32,143 nucleotides of DNA from Ignavibacteriota bacterium. GTDB lineage: Bacteria > Bacteroidota > Ignavibacteria > UBA10030. The stretch spans positions 1-32,143 of the forward strand of contig JAKEEG010000098.1 of the NCBI GenBank assembly GCA_022616555.1. Reading direction: 5' to 3'. Positions 18,181 to 18,363 of this stretch are shown here, in pieces (position 1 is the first letter of the stretch; every line of letters begins with the position of its first letter). Both the position numbers and the translations under genes were made by a program. Below the pieces are notes generated by a model that ran no database searches, was not told the origin of the DNA, and worked only from the letters and a program-made list of their open reading frames with translations.

Positions 18181-18252
18181 GCTGGCGTAGCTCAGCGGTA
18201 GAGCAGCGGTTTCGTAAACCGCAGGTCATCGGTTCAAATCCGATCGCCAGCT
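18181..18252 (+). tRNA. tRNA-Thr (anticodon CGT)
   Basis: A 72-base cloverleaf. The acceptor stem is GCTGGCG (18181-18187) with CGCCAGC (18245-18251), and the D arm is GCTC/GAGC. The anticodon stem GCGGT/ACCGC encloses the loop TTCGTAA, giving anticodon CGT, which reads threonine codon ACG. The T arm is ATCGG-TTCAAAT-CCGAT. The 3' CCA is not encoded. Confidence 0.95.
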
Positions 18253-18273
18253 CAAATGAAATTGAGCGAAGGC

Positions 18274-18328
18274 GGTCATCGGTTCTCCCGAAGGGATTCC
18301 TACGGAAAAATCCGATCACCAGCTCAAA
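18274..18328 (+). repeat. Degenerate copy of the tRNA-Thr 3' part, split by two mini-hairpins
   Basis: Bases 18274-18285 repeat tRNA bases 18224-18235 exactly (12 of 12), and 18308-18328 repeat 18236-18256 with one change (20 of 21). Between the halves, inside the T loop, are 22 extra bases (18286-18307) forming two 11-base hairpins side by side: TCCC-GAA-GGGA and TTCC-TAC-GGAA. It cannot be a working tRNA because the 5' half is missing. Confidence 0.85.
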
Positions 18329-18333
18329 GGCAG

Positions 18334-18363
18334 GTCACTCCGCTGAAGGCGGGGTCGCCAGCT
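18334..18363 (+). repeat. Second, shorter tRNA-derived remnant with hairpin
   Basis: A more worn copy follows: GGTCA at the left edge and TCGCCAGCT at the right edge (18355-18363) match the tRNA, and the middle is replaced by CCGC-TGAAG-GCGG, another small hairpin. The pattern is the same as in the previous repeat. Confidence 0.6.

Follow-up and report, generated by a model that had tools for sequence, protein, structure and literature searches.

The tRNA-Thr(CGT) gene of an Ignavibacteriota bacterium is followed by two partial copies of its own 3' part, and the T loop of the first copy is split by a 22-base double hairpin that is dispersed in the genome. The tail probably arose through partial tandem duplication of this gene, with a small mobile palindromic element settling in the duplicates. 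The feature is real and recurrent, it is undescribed for tRNA tails in the literature searched, and its parts are of known kinds. Within the window, by which we mean the whole stretch of 32,143 nucleotides that was analysed, the locus is composed as follows:

18181..18253, forward strand: intact tRNA-Thr(CGT) gene, found by ARAGORN and by Rfam RF00005 (73.6 bits)
18254..18273, forward strand: spacer, which by its sequence can pair with the tRNA 3' end (GCTCAA-atgaaa-TTGAGC, 18250-18267)
18274..18285, forward strand: first tail copy, 5' part of the T arm up to TTC (GGTCATCGGTTC), a 100% repeat of 18224-18235
18286..18307, forward strand: 22-nt double-hairpin element, TCCCGAAGGGA followed directly by TTCCTACGGAA, in the T loop (TTC^AAA), dispersed in the own genome
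18308..18328, forward strand: first tail copy, 3' part of the T arm and acceptor strand (AAATCCGATCRCCAGCTCAAA), a 95% repeat of 18236-18256
18330..18363, forward strand: second tail copy, worn, its T arm replaced by a CTCCGC-TGAAG-GCGGGG hairpin (18338-18354), read from the sequence

The first tail copy begins 20 bases behind the tRNA and retains 32 of the 33 tRNA-Thr bases in the repeat search, which thereby agrees, with its blocks of 100% and 95%, with the repeat of T arm and acceptor part that a preliminary description had placed at 18274-18328. The insert, TCCCGAAGGGATTCCTACGGAA at 18286-18307, splits the T loop precisely at the junction of TTC and AAA. Its earlier reading as two 11-base hairpins is borne out, and the 22-mer can also form one longer hairpin because the second hairpin approximates the reverse complement of the first; for 30-base relatives of the element, the folding program prefers the longer single hairpins. 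The worn copy, reading GCAGGTCA-[CTCCGCTGAAGGCGGGG]-TCGCCAGCT over 18330-18363, does carry a different hairpin as described, but its start had been placed slightly late, at 18334 instead of 18330. The same kind of replacement of the T arm by a hairpin was seen in the tRNA-Val(TAC) tail of the own genome. The Thr tail is not a product of chance because shuffling the window gives an expectation of 0.00 for the 22-mer, the tail reaches an alignment score of 46.9 as opposed to a maximum of 21.7 for the downstream flanks of other tRNAs, and the architecture is repeated at many tRNAs and in many genomes.

Searching the own genome (G000) with the 22-mer, allowing up to three mismatches, gave 23 matches at 22 places, and the reversed control gave none. 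Several copies are cleanly nested at three points of a longer host repeat (GTCATTCCCG...GGGCATGAC), for example gctta^aaatccgcggg and gggaatc^cagcagg, and the filled forms, compared with the empty ones, reveal precise insertion inside other repeats with no duplicated target bases. One double hairpin is nested inside another in the tRNA-His tail. This His tail (L061/L077, contig G000:C84, about position 1090) also contains a palindrome, CCTGCCTGCCGGTAGGCAGG, which is another dispersed repeat of the genome. In relatives the element mainly has a 30-base form, in which T..GCC...GGC..A is followed directly by a second T..GCC...GGC..A; G015 holds 34 copies of it. Both the 22-mer and the 30-mer are very short (about 20-30 bp) hairpin-forming dispersed repeats, built from two adjacent T-n-A units with conserved stems, compensating stem changes and variable loops. 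The nested and empty sites suggest that the element is mobile.

The flank survey took in every exact 30-mer copy, or nearly every one, from five genomes, 75 of them distinct. Fourteen of the 75 fall in the 1 kb downstream of a tRNA, where about one would be expected (p 6e-13). Around the 61 copies away from tRNAs, with both ends counted, T makes up 69% at position -2 (p 1e-18) and a pyrimidine 80% at position -1 (p 1e-10). The element thus prefers TY^RA, and the T-loop motif TTC^RA fits this preference, which by itself cannot explain the strong bias towards tRNA tails because such sites are everywhere. A general targeting of hairpin tips was rejected, as the flanks paired no better than permuted ones in G000 (z 0.2) and reached only z 2.4 in G015. 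Some 30-base double hairpins (L216, L231, L237, and loci of G086 such as L434 and L455) are apparently located inside coding regions, where an insert of 30 bases would preserve the reading frame.

Tails were found at 4 of the 35 tRNA genes of the own genome, namely Thr-CGT, Val-TAC, His-GTG and Met-CAT. In three of the four, the double hairpin sits in the T loop; in the Val tail, hairpins occupy the anticodon loop and replace the T arm. No plain tail free of hairpins was seen among the 35 tRNAs. A covariance model, built from six tails of the 30-base type with the first loop of one shortened by hand, detected the T-loop element in 49 of the 98 genomes of the order. The preliminary description had proposed to search for the insert in this genome and its relatives and to inspect other tRNA loci, and its alternative of a one-off local duplication fails because the unit recurs at other tRNAs of the genome and of relatives; the dispersed insert, the 49 genomes and the tails behind many tRNAs rule it out. 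Its suggestion that a miniature element seeks out the T loop is upheld in part: the insert is dispersed and the unit stands at other tRNAs in both the own genome and relatives, but the element is not tRNA-specific, with the majority of its copies elsewhere, and the tRNA sequences in which it was seen were partial duplicates rather than an intact gene.

The genome surveys rest on searches and fetched stretches, those of G042 and G014 covering most, not all, tRNAs. G015 has tails at five of about 23 tRNAs and hairpin-laden copies upstream of two more sites. At two loci of this genome (L134 and L125; contigs G015:C51 and C82), the real tRNA-Glu and tRNA-Leu(CAA) genes are preceded by copies that bear hairpins (TCCCG..CGGGA) in the anticodon arm or between arms. 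Near tRNA-Pro(GGG) of the same genome (L137, contig G015:C41), four CGCCCGGTAGCGCA repeats, corresponding to part of the tRNA D arm, are each followed by TGACGAAGTCATCCC hairpins. The fetched loci, some of which overlap, contain 78 partial copies behind 47 tRNA entries; the search for these copies used the tRNA 3' end instead of the insert, within loci picked with the covariance model. De-duplicated over all loci collected to that stage, the set comprises 84 tails of 24 tRNA types, and the tails are almost exclusively downstream, with 84 there and one upstream. Scanning 84,980 genomes for the T-loop element by exact pattern returned at least 116 stretches, and those among the matches listed belong mainly to Ignavibacteria with their relatives and to Patescibacteria, with single cases in Margulisbacteria, Omnitrophota and others. 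The cognate tRNA stands upstream on the same strand in at least 57 matches, Patescibacteria included, compared with 3.1% for random pairing. Many of the matches listed have no tRNA link, and some are possibly inside coding regions. Where single MAG contigs are assigned to phyla such as Nanoarchaeota, misbinning may be the cause.

The arrays take the form of a tRNA, one to six repetitions of spacer and copy, and a unique flank. tRNA 3' ends are classic attachment sites, and crossover in the T loop is known for some integrases; the copies, which end at the tRNA 3' end, could accordingly be read as scars of integrative elements attached there, with hairpin repeats invading later. We consider this reading very unlikely. 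The spacers are often shorter than 100 bases, and arrays of identical units occur, such as the Thr tail of G010, a perfect 84-bp tandem repeat in 3.2 copies. The unit in G008 joins at AGCTC, which is common to the tRNA 3' end and the D stem, as would be expected for slippage. The window itself encodes housekeeping neighbours (an LDH-type dehydrogenase, a CarboxypepD_reg-like protein, and the beta and epsilon subunits of F-ATPase), with no integrase among the neighbouring proteins examined, and viral contigs gave 0 matches to the T-loop element. An attachment scar would be marked by a plain copy of the tRNA 3' end together with an integrase or its remains, whereas the copies here are split by hairpins and the neighbours examined are housekeeping.

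The T-loop position is fixed, and the hairpins that fill it are not. Behind Thr-CGT, the T loop contains a single hairpin of 30 bases in G012, one of 46 bases in G009, and an 11+11 double hairpin in G054, and in G031 and G021 a hairpin has replaced the T arm. Since unrelated hairpins share one T-loop site, the common factor is the tRNA copy rather than one element. Tails go together with hairpins: G032 has an array of six copies behind tRNA-Val and its element-free congener G042 has no tails at the 35 tRNAs read, and G014, which lacks the 30-mer, has a Met-CAT tail carrying hairpins of its own. Of the two congeners G029 (L153) and G031 (L156), one has the T stem CCCGC in tRNA-Leu(TAA) and the other CCCAT. 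Both types are present among the tails, which suggests recombination between tRNA and tail. We lean slightly towards a coupling of duplication and insertion over duplication first, because the one surveyed element-free genome (G042) has no plain tails. It is possible, though a tentative reading, that an undescribed class of tiny mobile palindromic elements, spread over several bacterial phyla, inserts between C56 and R57 of tRNA T loops and persists there because a coupled duplication of the tRNA 3' half leaves, at each insertion, an intact tRNA with a tagged tail.

The explanation by colonised partial duplicates, which we prefer, runs as follows. The tRNA gene would give rise to tandem duplicates that are 5'-truncated and end at the tRNA 3' end. 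The element, a double hairpin of 22 or 30 bases composed of two T-n-A units, would insert into these without target duplication, preferring TY^RA, and would find a fitting site in the T-loop motif TTC^RA of nearly every tRNA. Insertion into a functional tRNA would presumably be lethal. Insertion into the T loop would be tolerated only in a spare copy, so that the survivors would sit in duplicates, and the duplication would have taken place before or along with the insertion.

The preliminary description had also raised a processing or decoy RNA. In this reading, selection would maintain the tail as an RNA produced along with the tRNA, acting as a processing aid, decoy or switch, with the T-arm hairpin and the insert as its working part. 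The 3' ends of the tails are close to their own tRNA, with the last 18 bases perfect in 57 of the 84 tails, all five pairs of the T stem are kept in 51 of the 84, the same loop is filled by different hairpins, and the Thr tail design is common to G086 and G087 of the same genus. In some relatives the tail lies between the tRNA and a terminator-like hairpin (G010 as compared with G015), and where tails precede such a hairpin they are probably transcribed. However, the closeness to the own tRNA equally fits recent duplication or recombination, the predicted folding is barely altered without the insert, and the tails are patchy between close genomes, have variable spacers, occur in one to six copies and include worn ones. 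We therefore hold a selected function to be unlikely. The idea that the insert insulates the tRNA from the tail was discarded, as the 5' acceptor strand was predicted to pair with the tail whether the insert was present or removed; this modelled pairing is probably due to cheap extra multiloop branches, and the folding outcome is sensitive to multiloop energies.

Another source of the hairpins might be REP-like repeats moved by a Y1 tyrosine transposase. Y1 genes occur in 45 of the 49 element-positive genomes as opposed to 31 of the 49 negative ones (odds ratio 6.5, p 0.0013, with phylogeny ignored), and one Y1 gene of G011 has two identical element copies, one on each side. Yet this is the only one of 39 Y1 loci flanked by element copies, the other 38 having no copy nearby, and G033 contains 11 element copies with no Y1 match. 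The flank composition shows TY^RA only, with no fixed tetranucleotide of the GTAG type beside the hairpin. A REP/RAYT origin is thus not supported, and we regard it as highly improbable. At the G011 locus (L495, contig G011:C9, 887-1803), the Y1 gene is bracketed by two identical double hairpins of 30 bases, each sitting at the tip of a larger palindrome, and a third copy of this larger palindrome is empty.

Short palindromic repeats for which no mobilising enzyme is known are widespread, and little about them is understood. In the T-loop tails, the adjacent tRNA, a known gene, serves as the reference for insertion site, orientation, age and copy number in hundreds of genomes. The insertion mechanism, and the reason why tRNA genes act as hot spots, thereby become directly testable. 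The tails may also cause errors in tRNA annotation and in the prediction of attachment sites.

No precedent for hairpin repeats in tRNA tails was found in the open literature searched. The rtT repeats of the E. coli tyrT locus resemble the tails in that they follow a tRNA gene in tandem and contain part of its 3' end; they differ in their long unit and single locus, and are not known to have a hairpin insert in the T loop. REP/REPIN sequences with RAYT are likewise short palindromic dispersed repeats, and Y1 genes are present in the same genomes, but the element described here has neither a GTAG-type tetranucleotide nor a consistent linkage to Y1. The small dispersed repeats (SDRs) of cyanobacteria are 21-27 bases long. 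By their features they share with the element a short length, dispersion and precise insertion at a short target. According to PMC4390886, which cites Elhai et al. 2008, the insertion point of SDR5 in HIP1 falls between the third and the fourth base. The target here is instead TY^RA and the tRNA T loop, and the element is a double hairpin in other phyla and within partial tRNA copies. The mitochondrial double-hairpin elements, or repetitive hairpin-forming elements, consist of adjacent hairpins that are dispersed without flanking duplication (Paquin 2000; PMC2800124), and in a comparison by features the element matches them in all three respects. It differs from them in residing in bacterial chromosomes and in its fixed T-loop position within copies of tRNA genes.
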